Below, one piece after another: positions 6,779-23,775 of a stretch of DNA of 64,000 bases. This DNA comes from Lachnospiraceae bacterium (lineage in GTDB: Bacteria; Bacillota; Clostridia; Lachnospirales; Lachnospiraceae), in the NCBI GenBank assembly GCA_021770755.1, contig JAETQI010000002.1, positions 107,973-171,972 on the forward strand, given 5' to 3'. Numbering within the stretch: the stretch's first letter is position 1; each line of letters opens with the position of its first letter. Made by a program: the position numbers and the translations under genes. The notes beneath the pieces are model-generated. The model worked only from the letters and a program-made list of their open reading frames with translations. It was not told where the DNA came from and searched no databases.

Positions 6779-7912
6779 CTATTTCACCGCAAGCTTTGAC
6801 AACCGCTCCGCGATGCGCCCCGCCCCTTTTGCGTCGATCAGTTCCTTCTCCTGCCGATGTAAGAGCGCTCTGTACGTTCTGTCGGCGATGCATCTTCTAA
6901 GCGCTGCCGTCATACGCGCGGTCACTTCCGCTTCATCCTTCGCAAAGCACCCCGCGTTGACGATGTCTGTCAGCCGCTCCAGCGCCTCCGCTCCCTGACG
7001 CTGGTTCTCGGCAAAATAAAAGACGATCATCGGCACACCGATAGTGCTGACCTCATAGATCGTGCTCCCCGTCGCTGAGATCACCACGTCGCTTTTCAGA
7101 AGCAGACTGCGCATATCCTTCACATTCTCATGGATCACGATGGACATCTGACCGCCGCTGCAGTCCTGTACTTTATCATCCTGGTACCTGTGTTTCAGCT
7201 CATCGGCATACTGATTAAAGGGACCGCTGACCAGATGAAGGCAGATCCCCTGCCCGGCGATCGCGCCATCACTGCGCAGTGCCTCCGCAAAAGCCCCCGC
7301 CGCAAAGCAGGGATCACTGCCGCCGGTTGTTATCATAACATCTGTCACTTTACTGCGGACCGCATATCCTGCCGGCTCCTGAAAGGCTTTCCGCAGCGGC
7401 ATGTAACGGGCTCCCAGAAGGAGCCTGCTGTTTTCCATTCCCGCATCCCTATACTTTTGTGCCAGATCCGGCGCATAGATATTGTAATTGATCAGCAGAT
7501 CCACCGGATAGGCGTCTCCCATATCCTCAAAGCACGCCACCCGCAAGGAATGCCGTCCCATTTTTTTTAGTTCAAGGTAATACGCACAACTCACCTGATA
7601 GCTGTCCACCAGCAGCACGATGCCGTCTGCAGCCTGCTCCGCACAGAGCACTGCCGCAAGCCGCGGAAGTTCGCCCATCATGTCCCTGTAGTCCGTATCC
7701 AGCACGATCACGCGAAATCCCCTGTCCTCAATCAAAGCGCGGCAGCCTGCATCCGCCGTGATAAAGACAGGCGGATGCAGGCTGTCCCTGTCCGCTGCCG
7801 CCTCCGCCACCGCAAGGCAGCGCATCACATGCCCCATACCAATCTCCGTATTGCCGTCTGCACGAATATATAACACCCAATCCCTCCTGTCAGTCCCTGT
7901 ATCACAATCCAT
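6779..7912 (-). CDS. pseG: PseG, UDP-2,4-diacetamido-2,4,6-trideoxy-beta-L-altropyranose hydrolase
   Basis: IRADGNTEIGMGHVMRCLAVAEA, ITTGGSDPC, VVISATGSTIYEVSTIGVPMIVFYFAENQ; Pse operon context. Confidence 0.88.
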   Translation of the reverse strand: MDCDTGTDRRDWVLYIRADGNTEIGMGHVMRCLAVAEAAADRDSLHPPVFITADAGCRALIEDRGFRVIVLDTDYRDMMGELPRLAAVLCAEQAADGIVLLVDSYQVSCAYYLELKKMGRHSLRVACFEDMGDAYPVDLLINYNIYAPDLAQKYRDAGMENSRLLLGARYMPLRKAFQEPAGYAVRSKVTDVMITTGGSDPCFAAGAFAEALRSDGAIAGQGICLHLVSGPFNQYADELKHRYQDDKVQDCSGGQMSIVIHENVKDMRSLLLKSDVVISATGSTIYEVSTIGVPMIVFYFAENQRQGAEALERLTDIVNAGCFAKDEAEVTARMTAALRRCIADRTYRALLHRQEKELIDAKGAGRIAERLSKLAVK

Positions 7913-9347
7913 TCGAACCCGGAAAGCGCTGCCGGATCAGCATGAACGCCTCCGCCCGCTGCATCCCTGCCGCCATGCCGCGCGTCCTGGAGAGCACGTC
8001 CATCCCGGTCAGGCTCCTCGGGTGCGGAAAAGTGCACAGCTCGGACACATAACAGTTCATCGCCTGCTCCTTCTGCCCGTAATAACCAGTGATATCCACA
8101 AATACATTGGGGCAGAACGCGGGCTGTGCGCTGCAGTCAAAATTCCACTCCGAGGAGGAGAGCGTCTCAAACGCATAGACCGTCTCCACACAGCAGTCCG
8201 CCATCGGTCTCGTCGCCGTGAGCACCGCGCGCGCCGTATACTGATGATCCACATTCAGATCCCCGCTGTAATGAGTATAGATGATCTGCGGCCGCAATTC
8301 CCGTATTTTCTGCTCCACCGCCTTTACAATGTCGAGCAGGTCGACACCGTCAAAACGGTTATCGGGAAAATCCGCAAAAAATACTTCCCGATAGCCTACT
8401 GCCTTCGCGCTCTCCAGCGTGTTGCGGTGAAGCGCTTCCACAGTCTCCCTGTCCGTATCCTCCCTGTGCGTGCTGCGCGAAGTCTGCCCTTCTCCCAGGA
8501 TCAGGGCGTAGACCACGTCGCCCTGCGCCGTATATCGTGCCACTGTGCCGCCGACTCCCAGGATCTCGTCGTCGGGATGCGCCGCCACGACCAGCACCGT
8601 TTTTTTCTGCGATTCTTCGCAAGCCTCCGGCTGATCTGACGCACGCCGGAAGACAACCCGCGCCGAAAGCTCTGTTTCATCGTCGCGCAAATCATCGTGC
8701 AGATATTGCGCCTGCTCAAATTCCAGACGATGATCCCCAAACTCGATGAACGCCCTCGGATATCCCTCGGCGTCCAGCATCCGGATATGATCATAGATCC
8801 GGTCCGTTTTCATATCAGGCGTTATACGCCCGTCCTCCGGCTTTCTGCGCTTAAATATCACCGGTTCTCCCTCCTGCGGGACAGGTGATATCTTCGCTTT
8901 CGAATCGTCCAGGAAACGCGGGATCATCTCACGGAAAATGATATCCGCGCAGCGCACGAAGATCTCCTGAGCGCTCCCATCCAGAGATAACGCATGCTTC
9001 ATATAGACCGGACCGCCGTCGAGCTTCTCTGTCATCCTGATCGCCGAGATCTTCGTCTCCTTATGTCCGCGCACGATCAGGTTCTGCAGTGGGCTTCCGC
9101 CGCGCCCGTAGGGCAGGTCTGTCATGTGAAACACCACACACTCCCAGTGATCTGTTATCTCGCGCGGCATGATGTAGGACCAGTGCGGCAGAAAGATATA
9201 GTCCGGATGGAAATCACATACGTTATCGGCTGTGAACTCCTCCCTGCGCGTATAAATAACAATGTCGTGCACACCCTCGTACTGCCTCTGCAGCGCCTCC
9301 GCGCGCTCAATATTCCAGGATTTGATCGTTGCAATGATAATCTTCAT
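7902..9347 (-). CDS. Fusion: formyltransferase-like N-terminal domain plus PIG-L/LmbE-type deacetylase C-terminal domain
   Basis: N-term VVFHMTDLPYGRGGSPLQNLI...KLDGGPVY (formyltransferase fold); C-term KKTVLVVAAHPDDEILGVGGTVARY and YTHYSGDLNVDHQ (PIG-L signature). Confidence 0.87.
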   Translation of the reverse strand: MKIIIATIKSWNIERAEALQRQYEGVHDIVIYTRREEFTADNVCDFHPDYIFLPHWSYIMPREITDHWECVVFHMTDLPYGRGGSPLQNLIVRGHKETKISAIRMTEKLDGGPVYMKHALSLDGSAQEIFVRCADIIFREMIPRFLDDSKAKISPVPQEGEPVIFKRRKPEDGRITPDMKTDRIYDHIRMLDAEGYPRAFIEFGDHRLEFEQAQYLHDDLRDDETELSARVVFRRASDQPEACEESQKKTVLVVAAHPDDEILGVGGTVARYTAQGDVVYALILGEGQTSRSTHREDTDRETVEALHRNTLESAKAVGYREVFFADFPDNRFDGVDLLDIVKAVEQKIRELRPQIIYTHYSGDLNVDHQYTARAVLTATRPMADCCVETVYAFETLSSSEWNFDCSAQPAFCPNVFVDITGYYGQKEQAMNCYVSELCTFPHPRSLTGMDVLSRTRGMAAGMQRAEAFMLIRQRFPGSNGL

Positions 9348-9360
9348 TCAATAACACCCT

Positions 9361-9816
9361 CTACATCATGTTTTGTTCATATTGTATGCACTCCGGCAGC
9401 TCTTTTTTATGAAAACCGCATTTTTCAAAAGCCCTGGCGGATGCCTCATTTCCATATTTTACCTGTCCGACAAGTTTCGTAACGCATGGTATCCCATCTG
9501 CCGCAAGCTGTGTCCGCAGCAGGCGCAGCAGCCGGATCCCATAACCCTTTCCCCGCTGATCCAGCGCGACGCTGTAATCGATGTACGCCGCACTGTCCTC
9601 CACATTCAGGCGGATCTGTCCTACAGGTACACCGTCATCATCCAGAATATACTGATGCACCGACGCGTCCGCCATCATCTTATCAAACCATACCACATGT
9701 TTTTCATAGGGAATCTTCTCTGTGTGAAAGGCATTGGCACGGACAGCATCATCGTTTGCCCAGCCAAACAACAGATCCCTGTCGGCACGAACCGCCCTCC
9801 TTAGCTGCAGGCTCAT
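9361..9816 (-). CDS. pseH: PseH-like GNAT N-acetyltransferase
   Basis: 151 aa GNAT; LFGWANDDAVRANAFHTEKIPYEKHVVWFDKMM; between pseI and the fusion gene. Confidence 0.85.
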   Translation of the reverse strand: MSLQLRRAVRADRDLLFGWANDDAVRANAFHTEKIPYEKHVVWFDKMMADASVHQYILDDDGVPVGQIRLNVEDSAAYIDYSVALDQRGKGYGIRLLRLLRTQLAADGIPCVTKLVGQVKYGNEASARAFEKCGFHKKELPECIQYEQNMM

Positions 9817-10883
9817 GGCTCTGACTCCCCCATCCCGTCGATCACGTCAAATGTGAGCGGCGTACCGCGCTTAAGAAAGCACCTGGCGGTCCTGCCAAGC
9901 ACTTCTTTGTAGTACTTTGGTTTCAGTCCATATGCCGGTCGGATACTTCTGATGTTTTCGGGCGTGAACACCTCGCCGGCTGCAATGTCCTGCACCACAA
10001 AGAGCGAGCGCCGGAAACAGCGATTGCTCTCCTCCTGCGCCGAGACGCCGTACGCAACCGTTCCCATCGCTTTCTCCACCTCGCGCACCTGCCTCACCAT
10101 ATCCGCAAACTCGTCCGGTTCCATGGAAAAGCTCGAATCCGGGTTCTCGATCGCACGGCTGACACAGAAATGTTTTTCGATGATGCTGGCACCCATCGCG
10201 ACCGCCGTCGCAGCGCTGAAAGCGCCCATCGAGTGGTCCGAAAGTCCAACCGGGATATCAAAACGCGCTTTCAGATCCCGGATCGTGGCAAGATTCATCC
10301 CCTCGCTCTTAGCAGGATACGCACTCGAACACTTCATCAGCGCAAGCTGTCTGTTGCCGGTGCTATAGATTGCATGAACCGCTTCCGTGATCTCCTCCAG
10401 CGTCCCCATCCCCGTCGACATGATGATCGGCTTATTCCTGGAAGCGATATATTCCAGCAGAGGGATATCCACCAGCTCAAACGATGCGATCTTGTAAAAG
10501 CGCACGCCAAGTTCCTCCAGGAAATCCACCGACGTCCTGTCAAACGGCGTTGACAGAAAATCAATGCCCACCTCTGCCGCCTCGTCGCGCAGCCTTGCCT
10601 GCCACTCCCACGGCGTGTATGCCTTCTGGTACAGGGAATACAGATTCTCCCCCTCCCATGTGCCCTTCCCGATCTGAAAATATTCGTTGCTGCAGTCGAT
10701 CGTCATCGTGTCCGGCGTGTAGGTCTGTATCTTTACACAGTCCGCCCCCGACTCCTTCGCCACATGGATCAGCTCCAGCGCGCGGTCGATGCTCCCTGCA
10801 TGGTTCGCAGACATCTCTGCGATGATGTAGGCGGGCTGACCCTCCCCCACCATTCTTTCATTGATCCTGATCATGCTGCTCAT
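9813..10883 (-). CDS. pseI: PseI, pseudaminic acid synthase
   Basis: ATG 10883 overlaps pseF stop (ATGA); MSSMIRINERMVGEGQPAYIIAEMSANHAGSIDRALELIHVAKESGADCVKIQTYTPDTMT; C-terminal SAF-like region. Confidence 0.92.
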   Translation of the reverse strand: MSSMIRINERMVGEGQPAYIIAEMSANHAGSIDRALELIHVAKESGADCVKIQTYTPDTMTIDCSNEYFQIGKGTWEGENLYSLYQKAYTPWEWQARLRDEAAEVGIDFLSTPFDRTSVDFLEELGVRFYKIASFELVDIPLLEYIASRNKPIIMSTGMGTLEEITEAVHAIYSTGNRQLALMKCSSAYPAKSEGMNLATIRDLKARFDIPVGLSDHSMGAFSAATAVAMGASIIEKHFCVSRAIENPDSSFSMEPDEFADMVRQVREVEKAMGTVAYGVSAQEESNRCFRRSLFVVQDIAAGEVFTPENIRSIRPAYGLKPKYYKEVLGRTARCFLKRGTPLTFDVIDGMGESEP

Positions 10884-11578
10884 ATCTTCCTCCCCCGCAA
10901 AAACTGATACTTCATCTCCGCGATCTCCCAATCCTCGGGCGCGTCAATGTCCTGCACGTACATCTCATCCTGTATAAAGGGAACCGCATGCTCCATCCAG
11001 ATCGCCTTCTGCCGCTGAAAGCTTTTGACATTCAGGCAGTAGAACTGACCGCAGTCATGATACAGCGGCTCTAAATCCTGCGAACGCTTTGCCATGTTTT
11101 CAGGCCACTTGGGCGCGAGCCGTCCATCCTGCACCACGACGCCCCGCTGCGGCGGAAAAGAGAACTTCACCACCGGGATCACACAGTCCGCCTGCTCCTG
11201 TTCTAAGAGCGTCATCGCTCTCCTGATGGTATCGCCTGTCACGAACGGCGCCGTCGGATAGATACAGCACACCGTCTGAAACTGTCTGCCGATGCGCTCA
11301 TACGATGCGAGGACTTCCTCGACGACATCCGCTGTCGTGGCAAAATCCCCCGCGGTGTTCCCGCTCCTGAGAAATGGCACCACAGCGCCCGCCTGCTCTG
11401 CAGCCTGCGCGATCTCCCCGTCGTCCGTCGATACCATGACCTCCTCAAACAGATCCGCCTGCAGCGCCGCCTCGACACTGTATTCCAGGATCGGTCTCCC
11501 CAGAAACGGTTTGATATTCTTGCGCGGGATCCGCTTGCTGCCGCCCCGCGCTGTTATGATCGCTACACTTTTTCCCAT
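10880..11578 (-). CDS. pseF: PseF, pseudaminic acid cytidylyltransferase
   Basis: MGKSVAIITARGGSKRIPRKNIKPFLGRPILEYSVEAAL. Confidence 0.92.
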   Translation of the reverse strand: MGKSVAIITARGGSKRIPRKNIKPFLGRPILEYSVEAALQADLFEEVMVSTDDGEIAQAAEQAGAVVPFLRSGNTAGDFATTADVVEEVLASYERIGRQFQTVCCIYPTAPFVTGDTIRRAMTLLEQEQADCVIPVVKFSFPPQRGVVVQDGRLAPKWPENMAKRSQDLEPLYHDCGQFYCLNVKSFQRQKAIWMEHAVPFIQDEMYVQDIDAPEDWEIAEMKYQFLRGRKI

Positions 11579-11649: not shown

Positions 11650-12876
11650 TCATTTCTTATAATACGCCACGATCTTTCTGACTGCCTCGATCACGTCATC
11701 CACGTCCTGATCCGTCAGCGAATAGTAGATCGGCAGACTCATCATCTCCATATAGAGCTTCTCCGCATTGGGACAGATCCCTCTCTGATAACCCAGTTTC
11801 TTCTCATAATACGGATGCCAGTACACCGGGATATAGTGCACATTGCAGCAGATATTCTCCACCGCCATCGCCTCGAAAAATCCCCGCCGGTCGATCGTGA
11901 GCATCTCAGGCCGGATGCGCAGTATGTAGAGATGCCTTGTCGTGTCAGACTCCGGGATCTCCCGCTGCACAAAAAGCTCCGGCATCTGCGAAAATGCCCT
12001 GTCATACCGCTCGACAATCTCCCTTCGTCTCCGGGCAAACTGCCCGAGCTTGTCGATCTGGCTTAGGATCAACGCGCACTGGATATCGGTGATCCTGTAA
12101 TTGTATCCCAAGTCAATCTGCTCATGATACCATGGGCCATGACTCTCATTCACATAATCTTCCTCGTCCTTTGTGATCCCGTGGGAACGATATAACAGAA
12201 GCTTCTCGTATATGTCCGCCCTGTCCGTGAGCACGGCGCCGCCCTCACCGCCTGTCACCGTCTTGACCGGATGGAAGCTGAACGTCGTGATATCCGCAAT
12301 ACTGCCGACAGGCTTTCCCTTGTATTTCGTGCCGATGGAATGGGCGGCATCCTCGATCAGCACGACGCCTTTCTCGCGGCACATGGCAAGCAGTTCGTCA
12401 AGCCTCGGCGCCTGCCCTGTAAAATCGACGGCAACCACCGCCCTGGTGCGGTCTGTCATCCTCTCCCGCACACGCGCCGGATCGATATTGTAAGTCGCAG
12501 GATCAATGTCCGCAAAAACCGGCCTGCCCCCGCAGTAGAGCGCACAGTTCGCCGACGCCGCGAACGTGATCGGCGTCGTGATCAGCTCATCTCCCGCGCC
12601 CACCCCCGCCGCCATCGCAGCGATGTGGAGCGCGGCGGTGCCGTTGCTGACAGCGACCGCATATTTTGCCCCTGTGATCTCGCAGAGTTTTCTTTCAAGC
12701 TCCACGACCTTCGGGCCGCAGGTGAGATAATCACTGGTGAGCACCTGCTCCACAGCTTTCACATCCGCCTGGTCCACAAACTGGTGTCCATAGTAAAGCT
12801 TCGTGTCCCTGACCGGTTTTCCGCCGGCAATCGCTGGTTTTTCCATCCTGACACCCATTTCCTTTCCACCGATCAT
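11650..12876 (-). CDS. pseC: PseC, UDP-4-amino-4,6-dideoxy-N-acetyl-beta-L-altrosamine transaminase
   Basis: PAIAGGKPVRDTKLYYGHQFVDQADVKAVEQVLTSDYLTCGPKVVELE; IEDAAHSIGTKYKGKPVGSIADITTFSFHPVKTVTGGEGGAV. Confidence 0.92.
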   Translation of the reverse strand: MIGGKEMGVRMEKPAIAGGKPVRDTKLYYGHQFVDQADVKAVEQVLTSDYLTCGPKVVELERKLCEITGAKYAVAVSNGTAALHIAAMAAGVGAGDELITTPITFAASANCALYCGGRPVFADIDPATYNIDPARVRERMTDRTRAVVAVDFTGQAPRLDELLAMCREKGVVLIEDAAHSIGTKYKGKPVGSIADITTFSFHPVKTVTGGEGGAVLTDRADIYEKLLLYRSHGITKDEEDYVNESHGPWYHEQIDLGYNYRITDIQCALILSQIDKLGQFARRRREIVERYDRAFSQMPELFVQREIPESDTTRHLYILRIRPEMLTIDRRGFFEAMAVENICCNVHYIPVYWHPYYEKKLGYQRGICPNAEKLYMEMMSLPIYYSLTDQDVDDVIEAVRKIVAYYKK

Positions 12877-13868
12877 TCATGCAGATCGGTCTTTAAGAGT
12901 TCCTTGATCTGATCGACTGTAAGCCACTCCGTATTGTTCCCGGACGAATAATAAAATCCGTCCTCCACCTTTCTGCCGCTCGGGTTCGGACGCTTGGACT
13001 CCTGCCAGAACATCTGCGGGTAGATGATATAATTCTTCTCGTACTCGTAGGTCGTCACGGAATCCTCCGCCGTGACCATCACCTCGTGAAGCTTCTCCCC
13101 CGGACGGATGCCGACCTCGACCGTCCGCATGCCCGGCGCCATCGCCTCCGCAAGATCCGTGATCTTAAACGACGGGATCTTGCTGATGAAAGTCTCACCG
13201 CCCTTTGCTTCCTCGAGCGCCTTGACCACAAGCTCGACCCCCTGTGTGAGACTGATCCAGAAACGCGTCATGCGGAAATCCGTGATCGGAAGCTCTTTGG
13301 CACCCTCGTAGATCAGCTTCTGAAACAGCGGAATGATCGAACCGCGGCTGCCCGCCACATTCCCGTACCGCACGATCGAGAAGTTCAGATCCTTCGTGCC
13401 GCAGTACGCATTCGCCGCGATGAACAGCTTGTCCGATACTAATTTCGTACCTCCGTAGAGATTCACCGGGTTGACTGCCTTGTCCGTCGACAGCGCCACC
13501 ACTTTCTGAACGCGCGTGTTCAGCGCCGCATCGATGACATTCTGCGCGCCGTTCACATTGGTCTTGATCGCCTCGTTGGGATTGTACTCGCACGCCGGCA
13601 CCTGTTTCAGCGCCGCCGCGTGGATCACAAAGTCAACGCCCTCAAACGCGCGTTTCATGCGCTCATAGTCGCGCACGTCGCCGATAAAGAAACGCAGTTT
13701 GTCCTTGTACTGGGCAAAATCGTTTGCCATCACCCACTGCTTGAACTCATCCCTGGAATAAATGATGATCTTCTTTGGGTTATAATGTGCCAGCACATAC
13801 GCGGTAAAACACCTTCCAAAAGAGCCGGTGCCGCCGGTGATCAGTATCGTTTTATCATCTAATATCAT
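12873..13868 (-). CDS. pseB: PseB, UDP-N-acetylglucosamine 4,6-dehydratase (inverting)
   Basis: DDKTILITGGTGSFGRCFTAYVLAHYNPKKIIIYSRDEFKQWVM; overlaps pseC. Confidence 0.94.
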   Translation of the reverse strand: MILDDKTILITGGTGSFGRCFTAYVLAHYNPKKIIIYSRDEFKQWVMANDFAQYKDKLRFFIGDVRDYERMKRAFEGVDFVIHAAALKQVPACEYNPNEAIKTNVNGAQNVIDAALNTRVQKVVALSTDKAVNPVNLYGGTKLVSDKLFIAANAYCGTKDLNFSIVRYGNVAGSRGSIIPLFQKLIYEGAKELPITDFRMTRFWISLTQGVELVVKALEEAKGGETFISKIPSFKITDLAEAMAPGMRTVEVGIRPGEKLHEVMVTAEDSVTTYEYEKNYIIYPQMFWQESKRPNPSGRKVEDGFYYSSGNNTEWLTVDQIKELLKTDLHE

Positions 13869-13955: not shown

Positions 13956-15314
13956 TTATTCATCAAACATGAGATCTGCCGCGACGCTTCCAAGGATCTT
14001 GTCATACACGGTGATATTCCACCGTTTCCCCGCCTGATAGTGCTCCACACCGTCGATCAGCACCTGCTGGAGCGGCCCCATCCTGGCGAGTACCAGCTCG
14101 CTCTCCCCGATCTTCCTGTGCCGGATGCCGTCGTCCTGCCATTCCAGGTCCAGCGCCACGCGGCAGTCCTCATACACCCACTGCCGCACACCGCCGTTAT
14201 GCTGCGCGTCCGTCACGATCAGCGCATAATCCCTGTCATCCTGCAGCATCTCGATGCATTCCCGCGCCGTCTGCGCATCCATATACGCCTGCCAGCCCTT
14301 GCGCTGTCTGTAGGCGCACGCCTCATCCCACGAGTTGGGCACTGCTTCCCCTCTCCTGTCCGCAAGCTCATAATTTTCCTTGAGATAACCGCCCAGATAG
14401 CTTGTGACCTTGCGCGCACCGGAATCATTTAAGTGCTGCGGATCCCTGAAATCTGCCGCCATGTCAAGCGCGATCTTCCCGTCGCTGTACAGCTCATTGA
14501 AATCCACGAACCTTAGCCCCTGCGCGTCAGCGAGCGCCCGCACCGCCTCCGTCTCGTATCGGTGCCAGTTCTCCCGCGGCGACTTGAACAGCATCAGTTC
14601 CGCATTGTTCTGCCTGCACAACTGCAGGATCTCTCCAAGGCAGTAGGCATTCTCCTCCTCGATCTGCACCGCGCCCTCAAAATCATACTCCGTCAGGTTG
14701 ATCCGCTCCTCCGAGACCGCCTGCGTCTCCAGATATCCTTTTGTATAGTTTGTCTTATCCTGATAAAAATATGTGTAATCCGTCCTGGAAAGCTCCTTCC
14801 AGCGGCCATGATAGCGAAAGATCGGAAATACATACGAAAAATACTCCGCATTCACCGCTCCCACCGACTGATAGATGCATTGGAGCTTGTCCGCCGAGAG
14901 CGGTATATTCGTAAATCCCCAGCGCAGTCCCGCCTCGCTGCGGCTGCTCGCACTGTCGCTCGTCATCATGTTGACCTCGAGTGCCACAACCCTGGGCTTC
15001 TGGGTTTTGAACACTTCCTTAAGATACAGCACCGAGATGTTCATCGGCTGCGATGAACTGCCAAAATCATATGCCGCGATACCGTACTCCTCGTACAGCA
15101 CGAGCGGATCGACCGTGCAGAAGCTGTTGCTGCTGCCGATCACGACCAGATCGATATCATTTTTCTCCTCCGCATAAAAACCGTCCACGATCGAGGTGGA
15201 ATCCCCTATGAACTTCGCGCGGATGATCTGCCCCGTGACAGCAAACACCAGACCGATCACCAGGATAAAGACCGCTATGGATAGGATCCTCGAAACGACT
15301 GCCCTTCTTGACAT
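13956..15314 (-). CDS. SGNH/DHHW-like protein, companion of MBOAT
   Basis: ATG 15314 after GGGGAGGTTGGC; N-terminal TM, LVVIGSSNSFCTVDPLVLYEEYGIAAYDFGSSSQPMNIS, DFRDPQHLNDSGARKVT. Confidence 0.78.
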   Translation of the reverse strand: MSRRAVVSRILSIAVFILVIGLVFAVTGQIIRAKFIGDSTSIVDGFYAEEKNDIDLVVIGSSNSFCTVDPLVLYEEYGIAAYDFGSSSQPMNISVLYLKEVFKTQKPRVVALEVNMMTSDSASSRSEAGLRWGFTNIPLSADKLQCIYQSVGAVNAEYFSYVFPIFRYHGRWKELSRTDYTYFYQDKTNYTKGYLETQAVSEERINLTEYDFEGAVQIEEENAYCLGEILQLCRQNNAELMLFKSPRENWHRYETEAVRALADAQGLRFVDFNELYSDGKIALDMAADFRDPQHLNDSGARKVTSYLGGYLKENYELADRRGEAVPNSWDEACAYRQRKGWQAYMDAQTARECIEMLQDDRDYALIVTDAQHNGGVRQWVYEDCRVALDLEWQDDGIRHRKIGESELVLARMGPLQQVLIDGVEHYQAGKRWNITVYDKILGSVAADLMFDE

Positions 15315-21427: not shown

Positions 21428-22567
21428 CTATTTGTCGGCGAGCGCAAGCCCCGCCTTTTTGTTATATGCGTGCTTCTCCAGATCCTCGTAGGCGTCCCAG
21501 AAGGAGGCGCCGAGATTGATCTTCTCCTCCACGAAATCCATATTGTTCATCGCCGTGGTCACGATCGACACCGCGCGTTTGATGCGGAGCCCCTCAAAGA
21601 AATTGAGCACCTCAACGGGAAAACGGCCGCGGAGCACGACCACGTCGGGACACAGCGCCTCATAGTCGATCGTGTCCCGCGGGTGCGGCTTGATCAGGAC
21701 ACGGTAGCCGCCGCAATACCGCTCGATCACATCGAGACAGACCCGCTTCCTCGCCTCCACGTCAACCGGGTGCGGTTCTGTCAGGAAACACGCAAACTCC
21801 TCGCCCTCGTATGACGGTGCCAGTTGGCGGATCAGCTCGTCCGCGTCCTCGATAAACGCCTGGATCATCAGCCGCTTCTGTTCTGATGTCAGCGCCCGCT
21901 CCAACGGCTTTCTCGGCTCCTCGACAAAGCGCGGGCATTCGGTCGGCACCACACTCCGGTCATTGATCTCCATGTCGATACAGTACTTTCCCCAGCCGTT
22001 CATGATAAAGATCAGATTCAGACGCGAGAACAGCGTTTTCAGCTTAAAGTGCCCGTGATTGGCGACATAGGCATCGTCGAGATTCTTGAGGCAGTCAAGC
22101 CCGTCCTCCACCGCATGATAATAGAGATGCCTGTAGTTCAGATAATACCCGATCGGATCACTGTCGCAGAACACATAGATGTCCTCATACGCCGCGAAAT
22201 CGATCACCTTCATATACGGAATCTCGCACTTTGCGAGCTTTTTCGTAAAGATCATGCGGTTTACCATGTGTTTCAGGATATTGCTGTAATTTTTCCTGTA
22301 CTTTGCCAGCTCCGGGAAAAAGTCCTCCCGCTTCTCATCAAGCGCGATGACCTCATGAAAGATCCCCGTCCCTGCAAGCCTGTCCCCGAGCTTCTCAAAA
22401 TTGGTGGAAATGGCGCTCAGCGCGATATCCGCTTTTCTGTAATCTCCAGCAGGCGTATTCCTTGCCAGCTTCATCTCCTTAAGCACCGCCACATATACAT
22501 GATAAAAAGTGTGGCAGACGTAGATCCTGGACTTTGTCTTGTTTTTCTTTCCTTTTCCTGTTTTCAT
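21428..22567 (-). CDS. GT52/polysialyltransferase-like glycosyltransferase, candidate pseudaminyltransferase
   Basis: ATG 22567 overlaps upstream stop (ATGA); RIYVCHTFYHVYVAVLKEM, VEDGLDC (D/E-D/E-G), YRVLIKPHPRD (HP motif). Confidence 0.7.
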   Translation of the reverse strand: MKTGKGKKNKTKSRIYVCHTFYHVYVAVLKEMKLARNTPAGDYRKADIALSAISTNFEKLGDRLAGTGIFHEVIALDEKREDFFPELAKYRKNYSNILKHMVNRMIFTKKLAKCEIPYMKVIDFAAYEDIYVFCDSDPIGYYLNYRHLYYHAVEDGLDCLKNLDDAYVANHGHFKLKTLFSRLNLIFIMNGWGKYCIDMEINDRSVVPTECPRFVEEPRKPLERALTSEQKRLMIQAFIEDADELIRQLAPSYEGEEFACFLTEPHPVDVEARKRVCLDVIERYCGGYRVLIKPHPRDTIDYEALCPDVVVLRGRFPVEVLNFFEGLRIKRAVSIVTTAMNNMDFVEEKINLGASFWDAYEDLEKHAYNKKAGLALADK

Positions 22568-23775
22568 TCTTTCCTGTTCCCGCTTTCCCGCCTCGTATAC
22601 GCATACCCATCCCGCGGCGCGATCAGCGGCGCCGCGCTCAGCGGTCCCTCCTTCTCCGGTCTCGCTTTCCCATTCAGCAGTCCCTCGCAGAAGCGGTACA
22701 GCCTCTCCGCCGCCGCCCTGGGATTCCATTCTCCGGTCATTGTCCGGTAAGCGCTGACACCGAGTTCTTTCCGCAGCGCCTCGTCCCTGCACAATGATAA
22801 CACCTGTTCTCGAAATTCCCTGTAATGCTCGTTCCTGAATACCAGTCCGTTCTGCCCATGCCGGATCAGAAACGGCACCGCACCGATCCCGCTCCCCGCC
22901 ACGACCGCGCACGCACTGTTCATGGACTCGTTCAGGACTGCCCCCCAGCCCTCGAGATGATTGCTGGTAAACAGGAAGATATCCGACTCCTCCATAAAAC
23001 GGCGCACATTCTGCGGCGGCTGGAAGCCATAGAACGTGACGCGCTGCTCCAGATGCCATCTCTGAACCAGCCCCCGCAGCTTTTCCTCCAGCTCTCCGCC
23101 GCCCACCATATTCAGATGAAACGATATGTGCTGCCGTTCCAGATATCTTGCCGCCCTGATGGCATACTCCGGGTGCTTTAATTTCATGAACCGCCCTGCC
23201 CAGAGGATCCGGACTTCCGGTCTGCCGCCCTGGTCATAGTGCAGCTTTCGGAAAAACAACGTGTCAAGATCATACGTGTTGACCGCCGGAAAATACCCCC
23301 ACACATACTTTTTGCCCGGATACGCATGTACGATATTAAAATCGGACGCAACATAAGCACCGTGACACAGCAGATACACCGGCGCGTCCGCGTACTGCGT
23401 GTGATCCTCGTATTTTTTCTTTCTGCCGCGCGGAGAGATTGATCTCCACTGTCCCTCCCGATAGAGGCGCTCGCTCGCACGGATGACGATCTTACCCGCG
23501 TTCAGCCTGGGTTTGATATAGCGCTCGTCCTCCACACCGCCAAACACGACGATATCGCTGTCCAGGATCAGCCGCGCACAGCGCTCCTGCTCCTCGTAAT
23601 ACAGCTTTAGATAAGGGATCGATGATACCTCGCTCCCCCACCCCATCTTCACCCGCTCCTCCTCCATCCTGGAGGTCTGTACAAAGGCAAAATCCGCGCC
23701 AAGCTTTCGGTACAGCTCATTGGCCATCGGTATCTGATGATGATTGATATAATTAGATACAATGGTTAATCTCAT
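22564..23775 (-). CDS. GT4-family glycosyltransferase
   Basis: MRLTIVSNYINHHQIPMANELYRKL; FLFTSNHLEGWGAVLNESMNSACAVVAGSGIGAVPFLI. Confidence 0.88.
   Translation of the reverse strand: MRLTIVSNYINHHQIPMANELYRKLGADFAFVQTSRMEEERVKMGWGSEVSSIPYLKLYYEEQERCARLILDSDIVVFGGVEDERYIKPRLNAGKIVIRASERLYREGQWRSISPRGRKKKYEDHTQYADAPVYLLCHGAYVASDFNIVHAYPGKKYVWGYFPAVNTYDLDTLFFRKLHYDQGGRPEVRILWAGRFMKLKHPEYAIRAARYLERQHISFHLNMVGGGELEEKLRGLVQRWHLEQRVTFYGFQPPQNVRRFMEESDIFLFTSNHLEGWGAVLNESMNSACAVVAGSGIGAVPFLIRHGQNGLVFRNEHYREFREQVLSLCRDEALRKELGVSAYRTMTGEWNPRAAAERLYRFCEGLLNGKARPEKEGPLSAAPLIAPRDGYAYTRRESGNRKE

Follow-up and report, generated by a model that had tools for sequence, protein, structure and literature searches.

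In lipid A synthesis, LpxC and LpxD act in turn on the C2 nitrogen of UDP-glucosamine, a UDP-sugar: LpxC deacetylates it and LpxD reacylates it. During pseudaminic acid (Pse) synthesis, the C2 nitrogen (C5 of Pse) enters as N-acetyl, and deacetylation must precede the attachment of any other group; the nitrogen at C4 (C7 of Pse) is a free amine supplied by PseC and can be acylated without a deacetylase. Flagella, capsules and S-layers bear nonulosonic acids in which C5 holds an unusual group. 5-N-formyl-legionaminic acid occurs in Halorubrum, where a formyltransferase alone was proposed (PMC6137143), Psychrobacter carries Pse5(R-Lac)7Ac, with a non-acetyl C5 (PMC7281560), and Pse5Ac7Fo is a reported formyl form of Pse, from Pseudoalteromonas (PMC3210612). 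Aeromonas pse islands contain deacetylases of unstated family (PMC7874193), and formyltransferases are noted in flagellin islands, with no joint role described (PMC5109656, PMC4875605). The LmbE enzymes covered by one review hydrolyse the N-acetyl or N-acyl group of a glucosamine core and share an HXDD + H motif with a spacing of 97-148 (PMC4101496). In the literature searched, which left most subscription journals outside, we found no paper linking PIG-L with pseudaminic acid, no report of a Pse5Fo7Ac structure, and no identified enzymes that replace the UDP-GlcNAc-derived acetyl at C5.

Here we analysed a 64,000-nucleotide stretch of a Lachnospiraceae genome (the window), in which one open reading frame (ORF) unites a formyltransferase with a PIG-L/LmbE deacetylase inside a pse operon. 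Its domains and neighbours suggest that the protein is likely a Pse-pathway enzyme that exchanges an N-acyl group in two steps.

The fused gene and its two halves

The operon runs pseB, pseC, pseF, pseI, pseH, fused gene, pseG, all on the minus strand, so that the fused gene is sixth of seven (Table 1). A first-pass annotation had called the operon complete, and every gene is indeed in place; pseB, pseC, pseF and pseI exceed their NCBIfam cut-offs, whereas PseG falls narrowly under and PseH is a divergent GNAT well under. The same annotation had placed a single ORF with both domains between pseH and pseG, which agrees exactly with a 481-aa frame bearing three Pfam domains over cut-off: Formyl_trans_N (residues 36-121, 35.4 bits against 26.1), Formyl_trans_C_2 (residues 170-219, 78.8 bits against 27) and PIG-L (residues 252-378, 98.7 bits against 28.2), the last assigning the second half to the LmbE/PIG-L family. 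An AlphaFold2 model of the fused protein has two confident domains and a weak linker (pLDDT 88, pTM 0.56), with a confidence minimum at residues 241-245; given this pTM and linker, the domain-to-domain geometry was set aside. Elsewhere, the source genome has a separate true fmt (303 bits), a PurN and one other, weaker PIG-L, as well as 18 flagellin matches on contigs other than the window's.

Table 1. Features of the window and of other loci named in the text.
Sequence	Feature	Position	Strand	Remarks
Window	pseB, inverting 4,6-dehydratase	12873..13868	-	over NCBIfam cut-off
Window	pseC, aminotransferase	11650..12876	-	over NCBIfam cut-off
Window	pseF, CMP-Pse synthetase	10880..11578	-	over NCBIfam cut-off
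Window	pseI, pseudaminic acid synthase	9813..10931	-	470 bits; NCBIfam cut-off 340
Window	pseH-like GNAT N-acetyltransferase (C4 amine)	9361..9816	-	43 bits; under NCBIfam cut-off 93
Window	Fused ORF, formyltransferase + PIG-L/LmbE deacetylase	7902..9347	-	481 aa; ATG start; Pfam
Window	1ZGH-type formyltransferase domain with Formyl_trans_C_2, residues 1-225	8673..9347	-	invariant H74 (9126-9128) and D110; V72 for usual Asn
Window	Stretch between conserved domains, residues 226-247	8607..8672	-	contains lost start codon of once-separate deacetylase gene
Window	PIG-L/LmbE deacetylase domain, residues 248-475	7923..8606	-	H257, D259 (base), D260, H368
Window	pseG-like UDP-sugar hydrolase	6779..7912	-	150.8 bits; NCBIfam cut-off 153.55; 11-base overlap with fused gene
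Window	Glycosyltransferase family 52 / polysialyltransferase-like protein	21428-23059	-	candidate CMP-Pse user on surface glycan
L034	LpxD-like hexapeptide N-acyltransferase	14119-15075		176 bits to PRK00892
L046	NeuC, ArnA-like formyltransferase and distant PIG-L in a row	7210-9979		near flagellin gene
L156	Gene pair in plasmid-borne pse cluster, Synechococcus sp. NIES-970	8983-10364		annotated 'methionyl-tRNA formyltransferase' and 'LmbE-like protein'
L166	439-aa protein, second-family formyltransferase C-terminal	7074-8390		preceded by a further N-terminal part

In the deacetylase half, the four HXDD + H residues are invariant in 29 sequences, with a spacing of 108, within the published limits. 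A fold comparison of the kind that the first-pass annotation had proposed, with Foldseek on the AlphaFold2 model, matched this half to LmbE deacetylases (TM by target 0.79 for TT1542 and 0.76 for BshB) and the other half to 1ZGH (0.85). Motif and fold together predict a zinc-type PIG-L/LmbE deacetylase. Three split pairs, each read through as one row, anchored the homologue alignment and served only for alignment and folding.

The nearest solved relative of the formyltransferase half is also 1ZGH (E 1.7e-72; 49-53% identity over ~215 aa), to our knowledge a structure without an assigned function, with which it has the HMTDLPxGRGGSPLQNLI block in common. Despite this fold and the Formyl_trans_N match, the canonical N-x-H...D triad is incomplete. 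Position 72, two before the catalytic His, is Val in 32 and Ile in one of 33 homologues, and 1ZGH shows the same replacement, whereas His74 and Asp110 are kept in 33/33. The replacement of the usual Asn, which had been remarked on in the first pass, is therefore a family trait and not a local defect, and since the position is Val or Ile in all 33, the domain is, by its sequence, a divergent branch and not a canonical N-x-H enzyme. Family-wide loss of the Asn could also mean that the domain no longer transfers formyl and that the deacetylase works alone, leaving a free amine or allowing another N-substituent. We consider this very unlikely, given that no variation is seen across phyla in His74, Asp110 or the HMTDLPxGRGGSP block, unlike in a decaying domain, and that a second formyltransferase family, discussed below, likewise has Val there in most members.

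Two other identities were considered for this half and set aside. TIGR00460, the model for methionyl-tRNA formyltransferase (fmt), gives 29.6 bits against a cut-off of 201.5. Because the window domain lies so far under that cut-off and the genome has its own fmt, the name 'methionyl-tRNA formyltransferase' looks wrong for the 1ZGH family as a whole. PseJ (6CI2/6CI4) formylates a Pse precursor, enzymes of its type acting on the amine that PseC makes. It was absent when the window protein was searched with E values of up to 1, and 1ZGH itself reaches PseJ with only ~28 bits.

The fusion itself looks real, recent and private to the source genome. In a genus survey, matches were present in 35/38 genomes, and the source genome alone had one unbroken frame through both halves; split relatives with both halves in a shared frame have at least one stop and an ATG between them. 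At the junction, ATG AAA ACA GTT, the deacetylase start of split relatives, corresponds to AAA AAA ACG GTG in the fused gene. It is because the stop has been lost, the frame kept and the old start codon altered to AAA that we favor a genuine fusion. Its confinement to one genome would also fit a sequencing or assembly artefact uniting two ordinary genes, and an artificial frameshift had been raised as a concern at first pass, but an in-frame junction with two start-codon bases changed and a stop lost is beyond one indel. We regard an artefact as extremely unlikely, and the comparison with split relatives led us to reject a frameshift or assembly join.

A conserved pair of genes across phyla

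Among 84,980 species genomes, a scan recovered 229 formyltransferase relatives, and the neighbours of the best 80 of these were examined; as these sequences are related and many belong to one family, the counts that follow are not independent events. Among the best 80 of 229, the PIG-L gene is adjacent to the formyltransferase in 71 and one gene away in 2. The contig ends after the formyltransferase in a further 6, in 4 of which PIG-L either lies at the edge of another contig or is truncated by the contig end. L106, which has room on the contig and no close PIG-L, is the single clear exception. These loci come from Lachnospiraceae, other Bacillota, Halanaerobium and Treponema, and from Planctomycetota, Desulfobacteraceae, Eremiobacterota, Omnitrophota, Auribacterota and candidate-phylum bins. 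Judged by gene neighbourhood, the conserved unit is the split gene pair, near-obligate partners across phyla. The fused architecture is limited to the source genome. Of the 80 relatives, 76 have a PseI/NeuB-like synthase. Flagellin genes lie near nine of the sampled loci; cultured carriers with one nearby include Desulfosporosinus lacus, Halanaerobium kushneri and Clostridium drakei. A phage search for relatives returned weak matches only, and a plasmid search one true relative, the annotated pair of Synechococcus (L156, Table 1); the other plasmid matches inspected were an ArnA-type gene and a true fmt.

As a control, 34 loci from the same phylum were picked by PseI alone, regardless of formyltransferase or PIG-L. 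PIG-L is present in 3/3 of those with a 1ZGH-type formyltransferase, including one (L163) in which the formyltransferase is split by an apparent frameshift, vs 1/31 of those without (P ~7e-4, phylogeny ignored). Hence pse operons do not generally include PIG-L. The lone PIG-L locus among the 31 (L166) carries the second formyltransferase family. The idea put forward at first pass, that one module deacetylates and then reformylates, consequently gains support that does not depend on the fusion: the pairing is near-obligate, PIG-L tracks the formyltransferase and not pse operons in general, and in some clusters a PIG-L without it is accompanied by other candidate enzymes for adding an acyl group. 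To that view we would add two refinements, namely that the nitrogen acted on is probably the one at C2 of a UDP-sugar (C5 of Pse), and that the fused state is recent and incidental.

Position and stage of the predicted exchange

The second formyltransferase family consists of compact, ~215-aa proteins with an HNLVVHES-LPxGKGW block, most of which lack the usual Asn. We did not retain 'PseJ' as a name for it, as it is a separate family; clear PseJ relatives occur only in L097, L161, L164, L165 and L186. The 1ZGH-type pair is kept in eight loci with the second family, in which PseH was not found (L098, L108, L110, L114, L121, L122, L124 and L126), and the second family occurs in 0/57 PseH-positive loci (chance ~2e-5, relatedness ignored). 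It probably formylates the C4 amine, predicting Pse5Fo7Fo in such clusters, which occur in Clostridium sp. KNHs214 and Clostridiaceae M8S5, for example. Similarly, in L097 the pair sits beside a PseJ homologue (E 8e-45 to the solved PseJ) and PseH is missing. The PseJ-type genes of control loci L161, L164 and L165, and of the short contig L186, have no PIG-L, as expected if the C4 amine requires no deacetylation.

Because the pair persists without PseH beside other formyltransferases, and because PseJ-type genes lack PIG-L, we favor action at the C2 nitrogen, that is, C5 of Pse, as the likely assignment. The pair could instead act at C4, with PIG-L stripping the acetyl added by PseH and formyl replacing it. 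The product, Pse5Ac7Fo, is a natural sugar (PMC3210612), and L165 encodes a single protein in which PseH is fused to a PseJ-like domain. Retention of the pair in clusters that have other formyltransferases in place of PseH, and the control-locus PseJ-type genes without a PIG-L neighbour, nevertheless make action at C4 very unlikely. In view of the PseH-PseJ protein of L165 and the two PseH-like domains of L089, which acyltransferase serves which position is neither strictly fixed nor always clear-cut.

With exchange at C2, the PIG-L domain, a predicted zinc deacetylase, would hydrolyse the original 2-N-acetyl of UDP-GlcNAc (the future C5), and the formyltransferase domain would move formyl from N10-formyl-tetrahydrofolate onto the freed amine. 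PseG, PseI and PseF would then yield CMP-Pse5Fo7Ac. The overall product is most likely Pse5Fo7Ac, with acetyl exchanged for formyl at C2 of the UDP-sugar.

Whether the exchange takes place at the UDP-sugar stage is, in our estimate, an even call. PseH-formyltransferase fusions are found in L053, L054, L087, L090, L094, L100, L102 and L106, with at least two origins on the tree. Together with a PIG-L-PseH fusion (L089) and the fusion described here, they suggest that the steps follow one another on UDP-sugars. Gene fusions are frequent in pse operons generally and usually involve PseH, further examples being PseH-PseI (L104), PseG-PseH (L171, L173, L175 and L177) and the PseH-PseJ protein of L165. 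When sequence distances were compared pairwise across 42 common loci, the formyltransferase and PIG-L correlated best with each other and with PseG (0.92 each); their correlations with PseI were lower (0.84 and 0.89, respectively). The same C5 exchange could occur at a different stage, with the free sugar left by PseG, Pse itself, CMP-Pse or the finished glycan as substrate, as the stage is left unfixed by operon order, pairing or sequence comparison. This is rather unlikely on indirect grounds, since the formyltransferase and PIG-L are each fused elsewhere with PseH, a UDP-sugar enzyme, PIG-L has an LpxD-like partner in L034, and the distance correlations, weakly, place PseG above PseI.

Other partners of PIG-L and comparison with known systems

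PIG-L also occurs with other candidate partners, judged by neighbourhood. A PIG-L-bearing pse cluster without a 1ZGH-type formyltransferase (L034) encodes an LpxD-like hexapeptide N-acyltransferase. In L029, L030 and L032, a PIG-L 53-59% identical to the window domain lies in PseB/PseC/PseH/PseG clusters that further encode an ATP-grasp-like protein, a methyltransferase, an amidohydrolase and a NeuB-type synthase under the PseI cut-off (the ATP-grasp and methyltransferase by domain scans of L029 only); the group added by these clusters may be an amino acid or a different acid. The gene row in L046 possibly performs the same exchange in a sialic/legionaminic-type pathway, by analogy with the legG-formyltransferase arrangement of Halorubrum. 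We tentatively propose, at somewhat less than even confidence, that C5 N-acyl exchange in nonulosonic acid synthesis is modular, with PIG-L as the shared first half and a 1ZGH-type formyltransferase, an LpxD-like acyltransferase or an ATP-grasp ligase as interchangeable second halves. If true, this would explain bacterial sialic-acid-like sugars with non-acetyl C5 groups.

Of the two results, the fusion is a modest one; the useful one is the module, which goes under a wrong name in databases. A conserved gene pair can now be named as a candidate for the C5 formyl, one whose widespread step is hidden by the misleading label 'methionyl-tRNA formyltransferase', and the question is testable with one fused enzyme and in cultured bacteria.

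Compared with individual known proteins, the halves differ chiefly in their company. 1ZGH, the 'methionyl-tRNA formyltransferase' of Clostridium thermocellum, has the same VVFHMTDLPFGRGGSPLQNLI block and fold as the window domain, but is a stand-alone protein and not fused. PseJ relatives, like the window formyltransferase, sit in pse operons, but PseJ belongs to another family that keeps the N-x-H motif and has no PIG-L alongside in the control loci. The deacetylase half shares its HXDD + H motif, fold and predicted N-acetyl sugar substrate with MshB, BshB and diacetylchitobiose deacetylase, whereas none of the LmbE/PIG-L enzymes in the available parts of the review is described in nonulosonic acid synthesis or as fused to a formyltransferase (PMC4101496). 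HrrPV6_1050, a predicted formyltransferase of Halorubrum sp. PV6 whose gene adjoins legG, is likened to our system by description and not by sequence: it would likewise place formyl at a nonulosonic C5, but in the legionaminic pathway and with no deacetylase mentioned by the authors (PMC6137143). Finally, LpxC and LpxD follow the same deacetylate-then-reacylate logic that we propose for the pair, although with an unrelated deacetylase fold, an acyl-ACP donor and another sugar. By this analogy, the pair would represent a fresh variant on a known logic.
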